Shown: positions 9,365 to 52,020 of the stretch, piece by piece
Position numbering within the stretch: position 1 is the first letter of the stretch
Layout of the letters: each line of letters opens with the position of its first letter
Assembly (NCBI GenBank): GCA_001661515.1
Contig: LUVW01000038.1
Location: forward strand, 1 to 64,000
Source: Capniomyces stellatus
Lineage: Eukaryota; Kickxellomycota; Harpellomycetes; Harpellales; Legeriomycetaceae
Direction of reading: 5' to 3'
DNA length: 64,000 nt
Program-made: the position numbers and the translations under genes
The notes under the pieces: generated by a model
Told to the model about the DNA's origin: nothing
Databases searched by the model: none
What the model saw: the letters and a program-made list of their open reading frames with translations, nothing else

Positions 9365-9802
9365 TATCGGTTTTGATATTATTTATAGTGATGGAAAATA
9401 GATTTAGTAATTCCGCAATTAAAGAGTTGGAAATTGAAGAAAAGTTATCGATAATGGGTAATCACAATTAGGAAATAAAAGTTTTAGTTTGAATTTAGGA
9501 ATTAAATCTCAATTTTAAAATCAATTTTTTTTCATGTTAATTTGATTGAAAAAAAAAAAAAAAAGGACTTGGTGATTTTATTTAAGGGATTTATTTTGGT
9601 TGGGAAAATTCGGGAAAATAATATAGAGTAATGAAAATAAAATAAAATTGTAAAGTGTAAAATTGAAAAGTGTAAAGGAAAAAAAAAAAAAAAAAANAAA
9701 AAGAAAAAAAAAAAAAAAAAAGAAAAAAAGTAAAAATCGTAATAATAAACAAGGAAAGGACTCAATGATAAGATAAGAGCGGATGGTGGTGATGATGTTG
9801 AT
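9365..9802. other. RRP12-SPT4 spacer with A-rich runs
   Basis: Contains the SPT4 promoter and the 3' region of RRP12. Long A homopolymers occur at about 9549-9564 and 9680-9730 (interrupted by G), with one unresolved base at 9697, a sign of sequencing or assembly difficulty. No gene is seen. Confidence 0.6.
9680..9730 (+). repeat. A-homopolymer tract with an ambiguous base
   Basis: About 50 bases of almost pure A, broken by a few G and by one N at 9697. It is T-rich on the strand of the flanking genes. Its length is unreliable because of homopolymer slippage. Confidence 0.8.
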
Positions 9803-32220: not shown

Positions 32221-35200
32221 ATGGGAACTGATATTACAAATACTGGTTATGAACCAAATGGCGGTGTTACAAAATCTAAAAAGAAAAACAAGCCTAAGCC
32301 ACTGGCGGAGATTAGCTTATACTCGATAATCGAGAGCAGCATTAGAAAGGGTGCGGTGCGAAGTTTAAATTCAAAAGACAATATGGCAGAAAGTAGGCAA
32401 TATACTAAACAACGATCAGGATTGCTTAAAATCAACGACTCCGCGAATGCCCAAGCTGTAGAAAGTAAAAAGCAGGTTGCGCTTCAAAGAAGTAAAGGGG
32501 CGAAAATAGACAAAGATAATAACAGAATGTTTGGCTGGGCAGGAAATACTCATTTAAGCGCAATTCCAAAGTACTTTGGCAATGTTGAAGGTGGTCAAAC
32601 AGGACGGCAACGAGGCACAAGAACTGAAATAATTGGTAAAGCATCTGGTGAAAGCACAATTGGTATTCGCGAAAAAGGTGTAGAAAAGTCTGTTGTTAAA
32701 GGAAGATCCCAAAACGATAGAATATACTTGGATTCTGGTCCACAGAACAAAGCTGATTCTTCAGCTCCGACAAGCACCTTTCGTGGGATCCAGAGGGAGA
32801 CACCAAAAGTTAAGAAAATCAGCAAGGTCAAGGTTGGGTTTTTGAATCAACGGGTTGTAGTCAAGAACATTTTATCTAGGCCTGGGAGCGATGAGAAACT
32901 GGCAGTAGGAGATTCGGCTAATGCCACAAGTTTATGTATTTGTACCGGCGCTGAAAACGGTACCAGGAAACATGGAGCTTCTGAGCATTATACTGATAAT
33001 AAAACTGTGGCAGACAAAGCAGCTAGCACTTGCTTGGCTACTAGAAATAGTGGACGTGATATAAACTTAGCAAATGATAAACAGCTGTCAGCAGTAAAAG
33101 CACACTATGGTGCTCGAGGAAAGTTTGTTAGGAATAAAAGCTGGAGTGCTTGTAGCCAAGTTCAAAAGTTAAGAACACTGTCGCTCTTTACCAGCGAGGG
33201 CGAGACCCAAAGGTGAGTGGTTTTACGGTGCCTTTTTTTTAATATTTTTTATCCTTTGCTCTTTACCCAAAGCTGGCTTTTGTATTTTATCTTGTAATTC
33301 GGTATCAAGGTAGCGTTTGGTAGTAAAGAAAATCTATGAATCACTTGTATAGTTACGTCACCCAGATCGTCAGTGAAGAGTTGGATGCAGCAGTGGACGT
33401 ATTCCTTAAGAAATTGGTCAAATTCCAAACTCGCAAAGTCAAGACTGAGCCCATGAAGGCTAAAACGAAACAGCGATATTGTACCGGGATGCACGAGGTT
33501 TTAAAAAAGGCAAGGCTTGGAAAACTAAAATGCATCATAATATGCGTAAACATCCAGCCAAGCAATTATAGCACAGGGCATGCCAACGACGAGGTCAGAA
33601 AGCTGATTAGTTTGTGCTACACTAAAAGCATCCCAATAGTGTATTCCAACACACGCAAGGGTTTAGGGTCGATAATTTCGACTAATAAAGACTATAGAAT
33701 GGTTTCGTGTGTAGGGATCACATTTATTGATGGGGCGGATGAAGAGTTCAAAACTATGACCTGTCTATCAAAGGAGCTTACTGATGAGTGGATACACCAG
33801 TTTTTAAGCGAGCCAACTGCCGATAGCAGAGATAAGTTAACAATAAATAGTGAAAGACTAAAAAAAACCATTCTTGTTTTCAAGCCATTAGTATCTGCGT
33901 CGTGGTTTGGCATGTTTAAGCCGGGGTTGATTTCATCGTGTATAAATTATGAGTTAAGTCCAACTCCAACTGGTGCGGAGGACAGCTGCGCTAGTAGCCT
34001 TGGGTTGTTTGGCGTTGTAAATCAGGTAGCAAAAATAGATTTTGCAGGTAGCATGATGACGCCTATTCTTATTGCGATGAACAACGGGCATTCAGAGTTT
34101 TTAAACGAACTTATTGATGTTAACAACGAATGGGTTGGCCATATTGATTTTAAGGCGACTAACTTTAAAAGAGAAAACGTATTTCATCTAGCCGCAAAGG
34201 GCAGGCACTTTGATCTGATACTCCGTGTAATTGAGTTCAGCAACAATAACATGGCTGAAACTTGCAATTTCCATAATGAAAATGACTATGTTGGAGACGC
34301 GAAGAAAAAGAGCGACAAATACGACTTTAGCAAGGAATTGTTAAAATTATCGTTTGAGAATTTGAGCCCATTAATGATTATGCTCAGTAACGAAATCGAG
34401 CCATGCAGTTTCACTAGAATAATGGACTACATTAAAAAGCCACCCCGTTGTAGAGGCGAACCAGGAAAACGAGGACAGGAACCACGAAAAGACGTGTTGG
34501 ATAATTGGTACGTACCTGAAACGCTGATGGCTGCTCACGGATGCAACAATATTAAGAAAAAAGATACAAATCTTGGGAAATACTTGCCTACACTCATTGA
34601 TTTGGCAGTATCTAGCTACAAAAACACGAGCCATTGCGAGCAAATTATACAGATTCTCACTCAGTTTACTATCCCAGCCAGCGTACTACTGCCGGGAATT
34701 GATGACATCACTATGGCTACTCAACATGCTCATTCAGATGGACACACTAGTACTATGGACTCCTCGCCGATTAATAAACATTCGGTTGATCATAATGATA
34801 GTAACCAAAGCAATGCGCGTCCTAATAACAATCTGTGTGTGTACCCTGACTACCACTGGTTATTTACATCATCGAAGCGAAATATGCAAGTTGTGTTTCA
34901 GCGTTTATTTGACCAGATAAATAAGATAGCTGGGGGAGATCTCTCCGATAAAATCGGCAAAATGACAAATGTAACTAGCCAAAGTCAAAGCCAAAGCCAA
35001 AGCGGAGTTAGCGACATGCTGGATATGGACAACAAAAACGCCAGTAAAGTAAAGTTGAAAGGAACAGATCCAAATACCGAGTCTTGTAGCAAATCAATTA
35101 TAGAAAACGTCAAGCTTTTCAGTGAGAGTTCTGACTCGGGCTGCTCTGGCCTACTTGAAAATGAAACATACTTGATTGCACTGCTTGCAGCCCTAAACCT

Positions 35201-35687
35201 ACTAAATTCGGTGGACTCTAAACACCGCTCTGCATTTTGGTATGCATGCTACTATGCACACTTGCCGATGTGTAAATCTTTGATACATACTCAAAACTAC
35301 CTGAAAAGGTTAATAATTCACAAACTAAAATACCTAGATTGCGGATTATCAAATTGCGGGAGTACCTTGGACAGGCAAAGTTCTAAAACAAAGGCCTTGA
35401 GATCCTTTCTGGCTGATGTGTTAAACGCCGATTTGCGCTTCCCGGCGACCAACAGCAATAGCAGCAATAACAGCAGAGAAATCGCGTATTTGGCTCCAAA
35501 AAACATAGTTGGAGAGTTCATGGACGATCCTCTGTACAACCTGGCCTGCACAAAATTGAAAAACAACATTGACACCACACCCAGTGACACCAACCAACAA
35601 ACGCTTGTCTTTAAACGCTGTAATAAATGTAAAGCGTGTTTGAGACTTGATGATAGAATAAAAAAAATTAACCTTCTTTTTGACTGA
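32221..35687 (+). CDS. SECISBP2: SECIS-binding protein 2-like protein with C-terminal ankyrin repeats
   Basis: Two exons, 32221-33212 and 33329-35687, give 1116 residues. Residues 1-330 are basic and disordered; KKKNKPKPLAEISLYSII near the N-terminus resembles the Lys-rich/LDLG element of SBP2. Residues ~336-480 match the SBP2 RNA-binding region: YVTQIVSEELDAAV, LVKFQTRKVKTEPMKAKTK (the SBP2-specific lead-in), then the L7Ae fold with LKCIIICVN, IPIVYSNTRKGLG and VSCVGITFIDGADEEF. SBP2 binds the SECIS stem-loop in selenoprotein mRNAs and brings eEFSec to recode UGA. After ~570 come ankyrin-like repeats (TPILIAMNNGHSEFLNELI, NVFHLAAKGRHFDLILRVI; another at ~940-985), not known from SBP2, and a terminal CNKCKAC cluster. 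The splice junction continues the SBP2 frame exactly. A non-selenium L7Ae role remains possible. Confidence 0.85.
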
Positions 35688-39587: not shown

Positions 39588-40907
39588 AACCTTTGAACCA
39601 ACTGCTCAAAATGTGCATTATTCGAAATGTGTTGTATTATGGAAATCCACCACAAGTATTTTATTATTACTGCTATTATTATTACTACTACTATTGCACT
39701 ATTTTTGAGACAATTAGTTATTACGATCTTTAAACACAATTGTTAAGGTAGTCAACAATCAATAAAGCCAATTTCTATAAACTATGGAGAAGTATTCGAG
39801 TAGGGTTTTGTTTGGTAAGACAGAATTATCCTCGTTAACTTAATTCAAAATAAGGTTCTTTGTTCCTCAACAATAGCATGTTCTGGCGATTAGAGTTTTG
39901 GCAAGAATTACCATGCCGAAAAGGGAATGCATTTAAATACAGCCACTAGTAAGCAGTGAAAAGCACATATTGTGGAGAGAGCTGTGTTGGCAAATTTGGA
40001 TGTGTTTGGTTTGTTTACACATTATATTGCTGGTGCTGTTTTCGGAGAATCCTGTGGATTGAAATTAGCGGGCGTTTTCCGATCAAGTAGGAAGGTTAAA
40101 CGGCAGTATTGATTGAACCAAAATAACAAAAATTGTAATCAATTGAAGCGAGTCTGGCTCGAAACTGAAATGGAACCAAAAAAAAATAAAAAGATTTAGT
40201 AGAGACAACATGAATCAACCATCGATTGGCGGCAAATCGGTTTTGGAAACCGGCTTGAAATTAAGGCAGAAATGTAAAACTGCGGACTTTTGCAAGCGAT
40301 AAATATCTATTGGAAAATTAAGTGTAAATCAAAAGAAATTCGATTTCTTGATTTTTAATTTATTGAAATTGGAATTTGCATTTTTTTTATTGAAATTGAA
40401 ATTGAAATTTGGTCTCTTTATAGTAAACTGTAAAATAAAATATAAAATCGAAATTAGCGAAATCAACAGTAACAACAGTAACAACAGTAACAACAGTAAC
40501 AACAGTAACAACAGTAACAACAGTAACAACAGTAACAACAGTAACAACAGTAACAACAGTAACAACAGTAACAACAGTAACAACAGTAACAACAGTAACA
40601 ACAGTAACAACAGTAACAACAGTAACAACAGTAACAACAGTAACAACAGTAACAACAGTAACAACAGTAACAACAGTAACAACAGTAACAACAGTAACAA
40701 CAGTAACAACAGTAACAACAGTAACAACAGTAACAACAGTAACAACAGTAACAACAGTAACAACAGTAACAACAGTAACAACAGTAACAACAGTAACAAC
40801 AGTAACAACAGTAACAACAGTAACAACAGTAACAACAGTAACAACAGTAACAACAGTAACAACAGTAACAACAGTAACAACAGTGGCGTAAAAATAAAAA
40901 CGAGGTA
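39588..40907. other. Permease-RAD2 spacer with minisatellite
   Basis: Holds the permease 3' region, a short TTA/CTA microsatellite near 39656-39700 and a 420-bp perfect minisatellite (40465-40884) ending 23 bases before the RAD2 ATG. An open frame from the ATG at 40348 runs through the repeat and stops at TAATG, overlapping the RAD2 start. No other gene is seen. Confidence 0.6.
40465..40884 (+). repeat. Perfect 9-bp minisatellite (AACAGTAAC), 46.7 copies
   Basis: 420 bases made only of the 9-mer AACAGTAAC repeated 46 full times plus AACAGT, with no substitution visible. It ends 23 bases before the RAD2 ATG. In one frame it encodes Asn-Asn-Ser without stops; one other + frame is stopped in every unit. 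Perfect uniformity means a recent expansion or ongoing homogenisation, and the assembled length may be collapsed. Confidence 0.97.
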
Positions 40908-43900
40908 ATGGGTGTCACTGGACTATGGAATGTGGTTGAAGGAAATTCAAAGCCTGTTAGGCTTGAAGCACTGGAAAATAGAAGGCTGGCTATTGATGCC
41001 TCAGTATGGATTCATCAGTTTATGAAAGCGATGAGAGACAAGTCTGGAAATGAGATAGAGAACGGGCATATAATTGGGTTTTTTAGGAGAGTATGCAAGC
41101 TGTTGCATTACGGAATTCGGCCAGTTTTTGTTTTTGATGGTAGCCCGCCTGAATTAAAAAAACTGACGATGGTAATTAATCCAATATCTAGAATAGTTAA
41201 ATGCGTCAATTGAAAACGTGAGCAGAAATGCAAGAATTGCCTTCATTAAATTCAAACATGTAAAAGTGAGAATAAAGAGAAAGAATTAAATAATAATTGA
41301 AAATGTAGCAAAAAAGAAGGAATCGGCAGTATGAACAGGAACGAGAGGTCAAAGTAGCAGCCGAAAAGCTTTTGGTTTCGCAAATGAAGGTTCGAATGTT
41401 AACGGAAAATGTCCAGGCTGGGGGAAAGTCCAAGAGAAGGAGCTTAGGGCAGAGTCCAACAGGGAGTATTGAGAAGGGCAAGACGCCGCCAAGCAATAAA
41501 AAGCGAAAAAGAGACGAGTATGATTTGCCAAATGAGTCGGCTGAGAAGGTGAATGGAACAATAATAGGAGCGGATTTGGGAAAGGAAATGGATCCACGGC
41601 TTCCGACTAGAGAGGAGGCTAAAGAAGGGAATTTTTGGGATAAAGTGCTGCTGGGTCGAAAGTTGATCGGTGGGTATGATAGAGACAAAGTGAAGAAGCT
41701 TGGAAAATCGGTGGGTAAAACGAGGGGAAAGGATGAAGATAGGGATGGGGATAGTGATGATGATATTATTGAGGTATACGAGGACGAACTGGAGGAGTTT
41801 GATAGTGTGGCAAAGGATGTCGATATGGACAGCAAAGAGTTTTTGGAGCTATCTTTGGAAGAACGACATGCTTTGCTAAAAGATTTGAAGGATGTATCAA
41901 GGCAAACGTCGTATGGGCGGCTGAAGAGAATGATTGAGGGATCAAAGACAGCAATGGATTTTTCGCAGATGCAAATAGACAACTTGATGATGCGGAATAG
42001 CCTGATGGCAAAGTACATGGCGGTATCAGGAGCGTCAGATCGAATTATGTCGTTGAAAAAGGGTGATTACTCGGAGTCTAAGGCAGTTGCTGGGCAAAGA
42101 GGGGTCAAGTATGTGTTGATTAGAGACGAGAGGCCAGGAAGGGGCTGGCGACTAGGTGATCCTACCAAGAAAGCCGAGTATGAGGAACAGAAAAAAGATG
42201 CCGAAACTCGCCAAAATGGCAAAAGTAATGAGAATTACATAGACCTGTATAGCGATGAAGCTGAGGTAGTTGATTTGCGACTGGACGGTGAAGATGATTT
42301 GGAAAGAGGCATTGAAAGACCAATGGTAGGATACCGTGGCGACAAGGATATTGAAATAAGCCATAGCGTGGACATTGACTTTGAGTCGGATTTAGAACCA
42401 GAAAGTGCGATCGGAAATGGCATTTATAGAGAACACGGAAGCGCGGATAATGGTGTAGGTGATGGTGTAGATGATGGTTTAGCTGTTGATAAAATATCAG
42501 GGAACAGTAGCAGTAGCGAGGATATAGAGTTTGAGGAGGTTCCAATTCCAAGTGCTGATGAAGAGCCAATTTTGGAAAGTGTACCATTTCAGGGTGAAGG
42601 GTACAGCGAGACTTTGGAATCCGGGGGAGATGGATATTTTTTAGTTGGAAGTCAGGCACCAAGGAGTGTGGACAGTTTTACGAACGCCGAGGATACGTTC
42701 AGTTTGTCTGAGCCTTTGCTGGAAAAGCTGAGCGAAAACAACAAGCAAGTCGGTAGCGCGGACTACTTTGACGATGGATCTGAGCTTTTTACAGATAGTG
42801 ACTACAATGAGTTTGATTCTTGTGAAGAAATAGAGTTTGAAATAAAGAGCTTGAAAAGCAACAATAAAGTTAGTTTAGTCGAATTAAGCGACAATGAGAG
42901 GGACAATAATGACAAAAATGGCGATAAAAAAGAAAAGAACAGCCAGGATCTAGAAAAGGGGAATGTTAGTAAAGCTTCGAGTATCGGAGGTCAGGGAAGC
43001 GGCTCAAGGCTAGGCTTAAAGTTTGAGGTCAAATCTGGAAATAAAGCTAAAAGCGATGGTATTAGTGGTTTAGAAGGCATGATTGGTGAAGGTAGGCACA
43101 GTTTTATGGAGAAATTAATGGGCTGCAAAGAGACTGGAAGTACAAAAGCAGGGGTGGAGCTAAAAAGAGAAAGGCCAGATATAAATAGCACAAATGTGGA
43201 GGGTGGGGAATATGTTGGCAATGGTGCTAGTAGTAGCAAAGCAGTTGAGTTGATCAAGTTAGATGACGAGTTTGAAAATAGAGAAGCTGAGGGTAAAACT
43301 AGCGGCAGTGAAGTAGTAGTGAATGAAAAGAAGGTGGTGGATAAATTTGGAGAGGAAAAGCCAAGTGAGAATGTATATACAAGGACAGATAGTGTTGGGA
43401 TAAGGGATAGTTATAAAGATGAAGAGGAGACCAAAGAAAATAAGGAGCAAAGACTGCTGACGCCAAATCCACAGGGGAACATGTTTGTTGCAGGGACTGC
43501 GTTGGGGCTTGGGGAGATCAGGGGGCTTGAACAAAAAACACCAGAGACAAGCAAAAGCAGGGGCAGTGTGGAGGGGAGTAAGGGAAACAGTGGGTCGTTG
43601 AAAAAGTACTACTCGCCATTTAGTCAGGGGAGTGTGGAGTCAATACTGAGTGAATATTCGATGAAGAGCGTGGATTTTCTATCACCAACAAAGTCACAGC
43701 GGAGGAAATCTTATGGGATGGAAAGTAAGAGCATTGGCGGCATGGACCTGGAGTTGGACAGCTTTGAGGGGGTGGGCGAAAGAAAAGATGCAGAAACGAA
43801 AGGGACAACTGTTTTAGAGAGCGAGAAGGGTGAAAAGAGAGCCGTGGACAGCCGGGCAAAGGTTGACGAGATGATTGAGGGGTTGAACGAAGAGATAGGC

Positions 43901-48400: not shown

Positions 48401-48795
48401 ATCACCAATTAAGTTATCCATATTGTTATCCATATTTTTATCCAAAGCATTCAAACAATCTAAAATCTATTCAAATTCTTCTCCCTAATCTTTTCAAACT
48501 TTTACCCCCCCCCCCCCCCCCCNNNNNNNNNNNNNNCCCCCCCCCCCCCCTAACTACTCCTGTAATACATATTTGTCTTTATTCCTTTGCTTTTGTTCTT
48601 GTTTCTATTATACTATTACAATTATACACCTACCTTTTCTAAACTAAATCCGGATTGGTATGTCCATATTTCAATGTCTCCATCGGATCTTCCCACTGCC
48701 AAGTATGGTTTGGTCTTCCAAGTCGGTGGCGTAAATCCAATTGAATTTATCGTTTTTGGTGTATAATCGGCAAACCGACACCTATGTACCTCCAT
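45495..48795 (-). CDS. UTP4: U3 snoRNP-associated WD-repeat protein Utp4/Cirhin
   Basis: Three exons on the minus strand, 48634-48795, 48187-48393 and 45495-48065, give 979 residues (yeast 776). The N-terminus MEVHRCRFADYTPK and the first blades (YLAVGRSDGDIEIW, RLFTAGLNSAIIEWNL, YGGAVWCMAVNKG, IIASSDDGSIRKW, GTLVSGDSSGHVTFWD) follow the tandem WD40 propellers of Utp4. Low-complexity insertions and a basic C-terminal region add length. Utp4 is part of the t-UTP subcomplex of the small-subunit processome, needed for rRNA transcription and early pre-18S cleavage in the nucleolus. The acceptor of exon 3 was chosen as the only one keeping phase 0. Intron 1 (48394-48633) contains a C homopolymer and an assembly gap that do not touch coding sequence. 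Confidence 0.92.
48505..48550 (+). repeat. C homopolymer with a 14-N gap, inside UTP4 intron 1
   Basis: Eighteen C, then 14 N (48523-48536), then 14 C. On the gene strand this is a poly-G run of unknown true length within an intron. It probably marks a read-through failure; G-quadruplex formation is plausible but untested. Confidence 0.95.
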
Positions 48796-49848: not shown

Positions 49849-52020
49849 TTATAATGAAGAGTAAAAACTATCAAGACGGTCCTTCAACGACTTTTCAATG
49901 TTTTTACGCTGCAGCTTGTTGGCTGATGTAAGACAGTTGTTTTCAACACTCCACTCGATAGTATCAATCAAAACTCCACGCACAGTTTCCGCCTTCGCAA
50001 GCTTGTTACTTCTTGCAATCTCCAGCAAATCATCCAACACCACCTTTGCCGTATCCTTACTCTTGACAAACTCGGCTCTGTCAAACCCTGCACTCGAAGA
50101 ATCGACCCCAAGCTTGCTACACAGTCTAGCAATCAGCTTTTCTTCGATGGAAATCATCGCAATCGGCTGCTGCTGGTCTGCACGGGCATGGATGCAAATG
50201 CTTGTAGAGTACTTTGAAGTTGCATACATCGACTCTAGCTTCTCCAACGCAATGTACTCGCCATTAGCCATCTTCACCAAATTCTTCTTTCTGTCAATCA
50301 GCTTCAGTTGCCCATCCTCCGTCCACATCCCAATGTCACCGGTCTTCAGCCATCCATCCTCCGTAAATGTGTCAGCGTTGATGTTTGACTTTTGGTTCTC
50401 GTCATCTGTTTCCAAAGGCGTCAAATACCCAGACGATATTGATGGTCCCTTTGCCCATACCTCCCCTTTTCCCTCCTCACTTAAATACCCCAGCTCAGGA
50501 ACACTGACCAGCTTGACCTGCACACTTGGGATTATTGGTCCAACCATTCCCAACTTGAAAGTTTCAAACTTCTGCAACGCCAACACTCCGGACGACTCTG
50601 TCATTCCATACCCTTGGATTATTGGACACAAAATACACGACAGCAACTTTTGCGTGCTTTCCGAAATCGCTGCTCCTCCCGACAGCGCAAGCCTCAACCT
50701 TCCTCCCACCAGCTGGCTTGGCTTACTAAAAAGGAATCCTTCAAGCAACTGGTTCGCACACTGCGGGTTAGTCTGCATTCGCTTCCATTTGGTATTCAGC
50801 GCTCTTTCAAACAAGGCCGACACAAGTCGTCCCTTCCCTTGAATCTGGTTGTTCAGCTCTCTGGCTATTCCGTTCCATACCTGAGGAACTCCCGTCATCA
50901 GCGTTGGCTTCAACGCCTGCAAGTCTCCCAAACACCCTCGCACCGCCGATGTCACCAGTGTTCTTGGCGACCCGTACCCTACCTTAAGCGCCTGTGATAT
51001 GCACGTAATCTCCACTGCAAACTCCAAAACGTGTGCCAACGGCAAATACCCGATCATTACATCATCGCGTCTAAACACTCCCCACAAACCAAGCTGAACT
51101 CCGCCCAACAGTGCTGTGAGATTTTTGTGTTTAATCAGCACACCCTTTGGATTTCCTGTTGACCCTGATGTGTACATTATCAATGCCAAGTCCTCTGGGG
51201 TTGGTAGCACGTCTCCAGCCTCTCCATCACCCTCCTTTCCCTCCATTAGCCTTTGTCCTATGCTCTCAACCTCCCGAAGTGATATCACTTTCTTCCCGCC
51301 ATCTTTCAGCAATTTTAGTGATGCGTCAAAGCTTGCTTGGATTTTTGGGTCAAACTTTTCATACTCTCCCTCCCCAAAGTAAATTAAACCAACCACGCTC
51401 TCTATCTCCAACACCACTCTGGCTGCCAGCTCAATGTTGTCGACTCTGCAAAACAACACCTTGGCTTTTGACTCCTTCAACGTATGTCTCAGCCCACCCT
51501 CGCCCAGGGTATCGTAAGCTGTAGATATAGTCAAGTTTTGTCTTGAACATGACAAGGCCAACTTCATCCACTCAATGCTTGTTGGAGCAAACAGCATCAA
51601 AATATCCTTCTCCTTTAACCCAAGCCCCTCGTTCTTATCCACCAAACCTCTGCTTATATCTCCTGTTGCTTTCCACAACTGGTTATAGTTGGTCCACTCG
51701 TAGTCCGAATACCTATTGTAAGTCCACTTCTTCATTTTCTGTGTATTGTTTGGTCCCGGGACCATTTTCTCCTCCACCTCGATCCCCAACAGCCTTCGCC
51801 TGCCAAGAATATCCGCGTCCTTGTACTCTTCCTTTGCCTTCAAAAGCACCTCGTACAAGGTCGAATTTCCTCCCAAAATCAACTCCTTTGAAATTAGGTT
51901 TTCAGGATCCTTGTGGTATCTACGTATCTCCTCGCCGCCCTTGTCCTCGCTGTCTTTATAAGGCACTGTCCATGTTTTTGGGACATTACTCCCGACATCA
52001 GGCTCATATTTCTGCGCCAT
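49849..52020 (-). CDS. Long-chain acyl-CoA synthetase (FAA1/FAA4 type)
   Basis: Single exon, 723 residues, the usual length of fungal Faa proteins. The AMP-binding P-loop is YTSGSTGNPKGV (283-294). A5-type QGYGMTES and the FACS signature region DGWLKTGDIGMW to IDRKKNLVKMANGEYIALEKLES (about 560-605) are intact, including the Asp and Arg that contact AMP and ribose. It activates long-chain fatty acids with ATP and CoA for lipid synthesis or beta-oxidation. No transmembrane segment is obvious, and the C-terminus (SSL) is not a standard PTS1, so cytosolic or lipid-droplet/ER association is likeliest. It could supply the acyl-CoA oxidase encoded at 4.8-6.8 kb. No intron is needed. Confidence 0.95.
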   Translation of the reverse strand: MAQKYEPDVGSNVPKTWTVPYKDSEDKGGEEIRRYHKDPENLISKELILGGNSTLYEVLLKAKEEYKDADILGRRRLLGIEVEEKMVPGPNNTQKMKKWTYNRYSDYEWTNYNQLWKATGDISRGLVDKNEGLGLKEKDILMLFAPTSIEWMKLALSCSRQNLTISTAYDTLGEGGLRHTLKESKAKVLFCRVDNIELAARVVLEIESVVGLIYFGEGEYEKFDPKIQASFDASLKLLKDGGKKVISLREVESIGQRLMEGKEGDGEAGDVLPTPEDLALIMYTSGSTGNPKGVLIKHKNLTALLGGVQLGLWGVFRRDDVMIGYLPLAHVLEFAVEITCISQALKVGYGSPRTLVTSAVRGCLGDLQALKPTLMTGVPQVWNGIARELNNQIQGKGRLVSALFERALNTKWKRMQTNPQCANQLLEGFLFSKPSQLVGGRLRLALSGGAAISESTQKLLSCILCPIIQGYGMTESSGVLALQKFETFKLGMVGPIIPSVQVKLVSVPELGYLSEEGKGEVWAKGPSISSGYLTPLETDDENQKSNINADTFTEDGWLKTGDIGMWTEDGQLKLIDRKKNLVKMANGEYIALEKLESMYATSKYSTSICIHARADQQQPIAMISIEEKLIARLCSKLGVDSSSAGFDRAEFVKSKDTAKVVLDDLLEIARSNKLAKAETVRGVLIDTIEWSVENNCLTSANKLQRKNIEKSLKDRLDSFYSSL

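Follow-up and report, generated by a model that had tools for sequence, protein, structure and literature searches.

A 64,000-nucleotide stretch of DNA (the window), lying at the start of contig C32 of an assembly of 24.5 Mb in 59 contigs, was analysed, and the searches for selenocysteine (Sec) machinery covered this same assembly. Within the window we confirmed a two-exon gene at positions 32221-35687 of the plus strand, whose predicted product is a SECIS-binding protein 2 (SBP2) of 1116 residues. Exon 1 (32221..33212, +) is open from its ATG and supplies residues 1-330 together with part of a split codon, and exon 2 (33329..35687, +) is an uninterrupted frame closed by a TGA stop. The predicted intron between them (33213..33328, +), drawn from splice signals and reading frame, has a GTGAGT donor and an AAAG acceptor; the splice is clean, with the donor after 33212, the acceptor before 33329 and the frame maintained across the junction. 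The open frame of exon 2 runs for 786 codons (33327-35684) before the TGA. The original prediction had located an L7Ae-type RNA-binding core and its lead-in, LVKFQTRKVKTEPMKAKTK, at 33329..34000. Both were present at this place, inside the 786-codon frame, and the domain had thus been positioned correctly, although that interval takes in no more than the opening part of exon 2 and the gene extends far to both sides of it. The stop codon of SBP2, itself a factor in the decoding of UGA as Sec, was observed to be UGA (35685-35687), and another TGA follows in frame about 20 codons later. UGA thus also still acts as a stop.

The SBP2-type L7Ae RNA-binding domain with its lead-in was assigned to 33351..33767 (+) from a phmmer search of the PDB, a Pfam match and a family tree. 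This interval aligned with residues 631-765 of the SBP2 chain 7zjw_B (E = 2.8e-22), the lead-in without gaps, and the RNA-binding domain was 40% identical to that chain across 128 columns. The chain 7zjw_B is that of human SBP2. The next PDB matches, among the 12 distinct sequences listed at E<=1, were L7Ae/eL8 chains at E = 0.018, and PF01248 (Ribosomal_L7Ae) matched at 33435-33692 with 38.4 bits (cut-off 22.1). No Pfam match, and no PDB match at E<=10 by phmmer, was obtained for exon 1. A core of the Sec incorporation domain (SID), NKADSSAP..GIQRETPKVKK, was located in it at 32740..32853 (+) by a BLOSUM62 local score of 72 to the SID of 7zjw_B (from residue 504), a score reached by none of 5000 shuffled exon-1 sequences (mean 28.4, sd 4.3). 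Against the SID of a Lycorma SBP2 the core scored 54, which 3 of 5000 exon-1 shuffles reached, and for a control region taken from the same protein the scores were 23 and 24. The common core reads DSSAP....G-QRE-PK-KK. PMC2746813 places the SID core of human SBP2 at K517-R543.

The predicted protein shares with 7zjw_B the lead-in, the SID core, the RNA-binding domain and the equivalents of K650 and L681, but it has T and D in place of N730 and Q756, keeps only the Y of the FRDY motif and carries an ankyrin-like C-terminal extension of about 630 residues. K650, L681, N730 and Q756 are given in PMC2746813 as the four RNA-binding-domain residues that differ between SBP2 and its kin SBP2L. This 2009 paper describes SBP2 topologies, does not use the word ankyrin, and states (data not shown there) that SBP2L was not found in fungi. 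The SBP2 of Lycorma delicatula (P0001) has the SID and the RNA-binding domain in the same order as here, but it has no Pfam ankyrin match and its RNA-binding domain lies closer to the C-terminus.

The extension is a degenerate ankyrin-like sequence downstream of the RNA-binding domain in the same exon. Ankyrin-like repeats matched at 34056..34247 (+; PF12796, 27.5 bits, cut-off 27.3), and a further single repeat at 35223..35288 (+; PF13606, 22.7 bits, cut-off 22.3). The SBP2 could be genuine and the tail an artefact of the gene model or the assembly, in which two neighbouring genes were fused. Such an artefact would fit the borderline ankyrin matches and the lack of room for a tail of this kind both in the Lycorma SBP2, with only the L7Ae domain in Pfam, and in the 854-residue 7zjw_B, where the domain match stops at residue 765; it would also fit the search with the tail-containing protein (search words from its first 500 residues), in which no other protein with the tail was found. 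We nevertheless regard a fusion as unlikely, given that domain and tail share a single uninterrupted frame that requires no intron. A genome search at E<=0.01 gave no second copy of the tail, which therefore does not represent a known stray repeat. The only SBP2 relatives listed by the wide protein searches, one of them made without the tail, were two Lycorma isoforms (P0001 and P0122). A single-sequence structure model of the protein was uninformative (mean pLDDT 32.9), and no paper joining SBP2, ankyrin and selenocysteine was found among open-licence PMC papers. The tail of this SBP2 is probably a lineage-specific module for protein interaction, and any role we might give it is a guess.

The original prediction had named two refuting findings, the absence of eEFSec and tRNA-Sec from a complete genome or a tree that places the domain with Nhp2/Snu13, and neither was obtained: eEFSec and tRNA-Sec are both present in the assembly, and the tree is described below. 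A tRNA-Sec with a UCA anticodon (ARAGORN: TCA) was identified at C38:80019-80104 with 64.1 bits against a gathering score of 47; eight more matches of 37-39 bits fell under the cut-off, and both of the two such loci scanned were called as Ser tRNAs. eEFSec was recognised by its Sec-specific domain III at C8:485751 (euk_SelB_III, 59.9 bits, cut-off 27), and its exon pieces, joined by eye, matched a solved eEFSec chain at 9.1e-85. The search for SEPSECS, too, was productive, giving four exon matches on C28 whose pieces matched the solved SepSecS at 5.8e-37. On C20, a frame of 443 codons that opens with P-loop-like sequence and contains the motif DDVFQYYSMR is a probable PSTK only: it matched TIGR03575 with 39.7 bits (E = 3.3e-10), far under the NCBIfam cut-off of 382, and had no PDB match at 0.1. 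A KTI12-like gene, distinct from this candidate and made up of several exon pieces, was observed at C53:11699-13279.

An SPS2 was also found, a selenophosphate synthetase whose Sec position is occupied by an in-frame UGA. On C5, selD matched three exons, each below the cut-off; once joined, the exons gave a match of 2e-92 to a solved selenide, water dikinase 1. The catalytic position is taken precisely by the TGA, in GWRLTSYSGLKG-TGA-GCK, and the next splice restores VSQERLNEILKEF. The second gene, SelenoH, was matched by TIGR02174 at C7:775090-775293 with 30 bits when unspliced, which is under the cut-off, and this interval is interrupted by a single TGA and a single TAG, the latter intronic. 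After splicing, the frame reads IEHCVS-UGA-STYKSNAL...GPPRKLKFP, matches with 44.2 bits (cut-off 34.2) and includes a CxxU motif in which U is the UGA. SelenoH stayed below the cut-off of Pfam Rdx (19.4 vs 22.6 bits), and the genome-wide search with Rdx gave nothing at E<=1. An in-frame UGA at a conserved Sec position was thus observed in two genes. The original prediction's warning that ordinary gene callers would truncate selenoproteins was borne out by the mechanical list of open reading frames, which terminates SelenoH at the UGA and so illustrates how such genes are lost from mechanical calling.

Signals downstream of the two genes were uneven. Rfam SECIS_1 gave nothing genome-wide at E<=10 (132 of 362 first-look candidates were scored, and the control genomes were prokaryotic), nor anything in the SPS2 locus or the SelenoH flank. 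A first scanner of our own found no match scoring >=7 in the SPS2 locus, and a second found none within 1200 nt after the SPS2 stop. With a relaxed scanner, SelenoH had 5 matches against 0-8 and SPS2 had 1 against 1-8 (ten plain shuffles each), so that none of these three scanners gave a signal beyond chance. A SECIS-like candidate for SPS2, AUGAC...CGAA with AAAA in the apical loop, lies about 162 nt after the stop, from C5:395412 downward on the minus strand. A bulge-tolerant scanner (bulges <=3 nt), written and loosened after this candidate had been seen and hence tuned on SPS2, scored it at 16.3, a value reached by none of 150 dinucleotide shuffles and by 1 of 254 control windows (500 nt each, from both strands of the 64-kb window). 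The best SelenoH element scored 12.3 with the same scanner, a value reached by 9 of the 150 shuffles and 35 of the 254 control windows. The fold of the SPS2 candidate was not unusually stable (z -0.71; 47 of 200 shuffles did as well). The SelenoH 3'UTR holds a long hairpin at C7:774780-774829 on the minus strand, about 80-130 nt after the stop; a 98-nt stretch here was somewhat stable (z -2.24, with 7 of 200 shuffles as stable), and the hairpin departs from the consensus SECIS in that its UGA-like bases are simply paired. These results are suggestive only, and would be consistent with SPS2 retaining a near-canonical SECIS and SelenoH not doing so. No paper on SECIS and Harpellales was found among open-licence PMC papers. 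The original 2019 report, by Mariotti and colleagues, reportedly describes most fungal selenoproteins as having no consensus SECIS elements.

The interpretation first made from the window alone holds, because the assembly has tRNA-Sec, eEFSec, SepSecS, a probable PSTK, and an SPS2 and a SelenoH that contain UGA. With the gene structure, the SBP2 identity, the pathway genes and the two UGAs established at the level of sequence, we are highly confident that the gene encodes SBP2 and that its owner, a fungus of Harpellales type, reads UGA as Sec in SPS2 and SelenoH at the least. The L7Ae domain would most likely bind a kink-turn-like RNA element in the 3'UTR, and the SID would bring the RNA-bound SBP2 together with eEFSec and its Sec-tRNA(Sec) on the ribosome, so that UGA would be read as Sec there and as a stop elsewhere.

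The pathway might instead be a decaying remnant, with SBP2 re-used for another role. Decay would be compatible with a yield of just two selenoprotein genes from the few families searched, with the Cys of MsrA and of both GPx loci, and with the lack of a recognisable SECIS in SelenoH. We consider this very improbable, as no inactivating break was noticed in tRNA-Sec, in SPS2 (exons after the start), in SelenoH or in the eEFSec and SepSecS pieces. Moreover, PMC12611240 describes Sec machinery in Zancudomyces, SecS included, and reports both machinery and selenoproteins as expressed.

The identity of the domain as SBP2 was also examined in a tree of the L7Ae family. Its 11 rows were the window domain, two other SBP2s, eL30, Snu13 (this fungus's own and yeast), Nhp2 (own and yeast, both partial), the own eS12 and two archaeal L7Ae pieces; the eL30 row was typed from recall and the own eS12 was named by eye, and both of these rows form long branches. 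The window domain branched with the two other SBP2s at 86/90 (86% of 200 bootstrap trees), a moderate support where the tool marks 95/80 as strong, and the SBP2 group adjoined eL30, apart from Snu13, Nhp2, eS12 and archaeal L7Ae. That the protein is another member of the family (Nhp2, Snu13, eL8 or eL30) and merely SBP2-like can be put aside as exceedingly improbable and, by sequence comparison, already largely refuted: the PF01248 fold is shared and L7Ae and NHP2 chains do match weakly, but among the chains listed the SBP2 chain leads by nearly 20 orders of magnitude, exon 1 carries the SID core, separate Snu13 (1e-60 to Snu13p) and NHP2 (3.1e-24) genes are encoded in the assembly, and the tree joins the domain with SBP2 rather than with Nhp2 or Snu13, as had been predicted.

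PMC10778597 treats Sec use as rare in fungi and counts nine fungal species that use it, and PMC10386755 assigns 7 of the 9 known fungal cases to Harpellales. The Sec system described for Zancudomyces culisetae, of the Harpellales, resembles the present one in combining Sec machinery with SelenoH in an insect-gut fungus (PMC12611240). Zancudomyces culisetae is a different species, with 56% identity to this fungus in one protein. As the trait has already been reported in Harpellales, our surprise at it is lowered; Sec use in the order is not new, and the unusual parts worth following are the ankyrin-like tail of SBP2 and the unevenness of the signals in the 3'UTRs. We tentatively raise the possibility, which we hold to be rather improbable, that Harpellales insert Sec by an altered route, in which an SBP2 enlarged by ankyrin-like sequence works with non-consensus 3'UTR hairpins such as that of SelenoH. 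If this were true, the fungal SBP2 and its RNA would have co-evolved away from the animal form. A contiguous assembly with SBP2, the pathway genes and two UGA-containing genes provides material to test how UGA is marked in fungi, and can equally serve to test whether the gain of an interaction module by SBP2 accompanies a changed marking of UGA.

Other features of the window bear on the origin of the DNA. A long-chain fatty-acyl-CoA ligase at 49852..52020 (-) had a Zancudomyces culisetae protein (56%) and, at 49-51%, four proteins of Smittium as its five best matches, and all other matches among those listed (the best 120 of 1884 at 1e-50) were at or below 41%, the next-ranked at 39%; both genera belong to Harpellales, as looked up for one species of each. 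By this one gene the fungus is placed in Harpellales or among very close kin. The tRNA-Ser copies on C5, which carries SPS2, and on C7, which carries SelenoH, were identical to copies on four other contigs (all seven copies fetched). Contamination from a host is disfavoured because these tRNA-Ser copies are shared and the window's contig carries a Harpellales-like gene. This argument covers C5, C7 and the window's contig; for the contigs of eEFSec, SepSecS, PSTK and tRNA-Sec, the observation was of a similar G+C (0.36-0.39). Elsewhere in the window, a simple-repeat tract at 40303-40922 was observed to keep long frames open on both strands, with runs of N/S, T/V, L and CYC residues, and two short N runs are located at 9697 (1 base) and 48523-48536 (14 bases).
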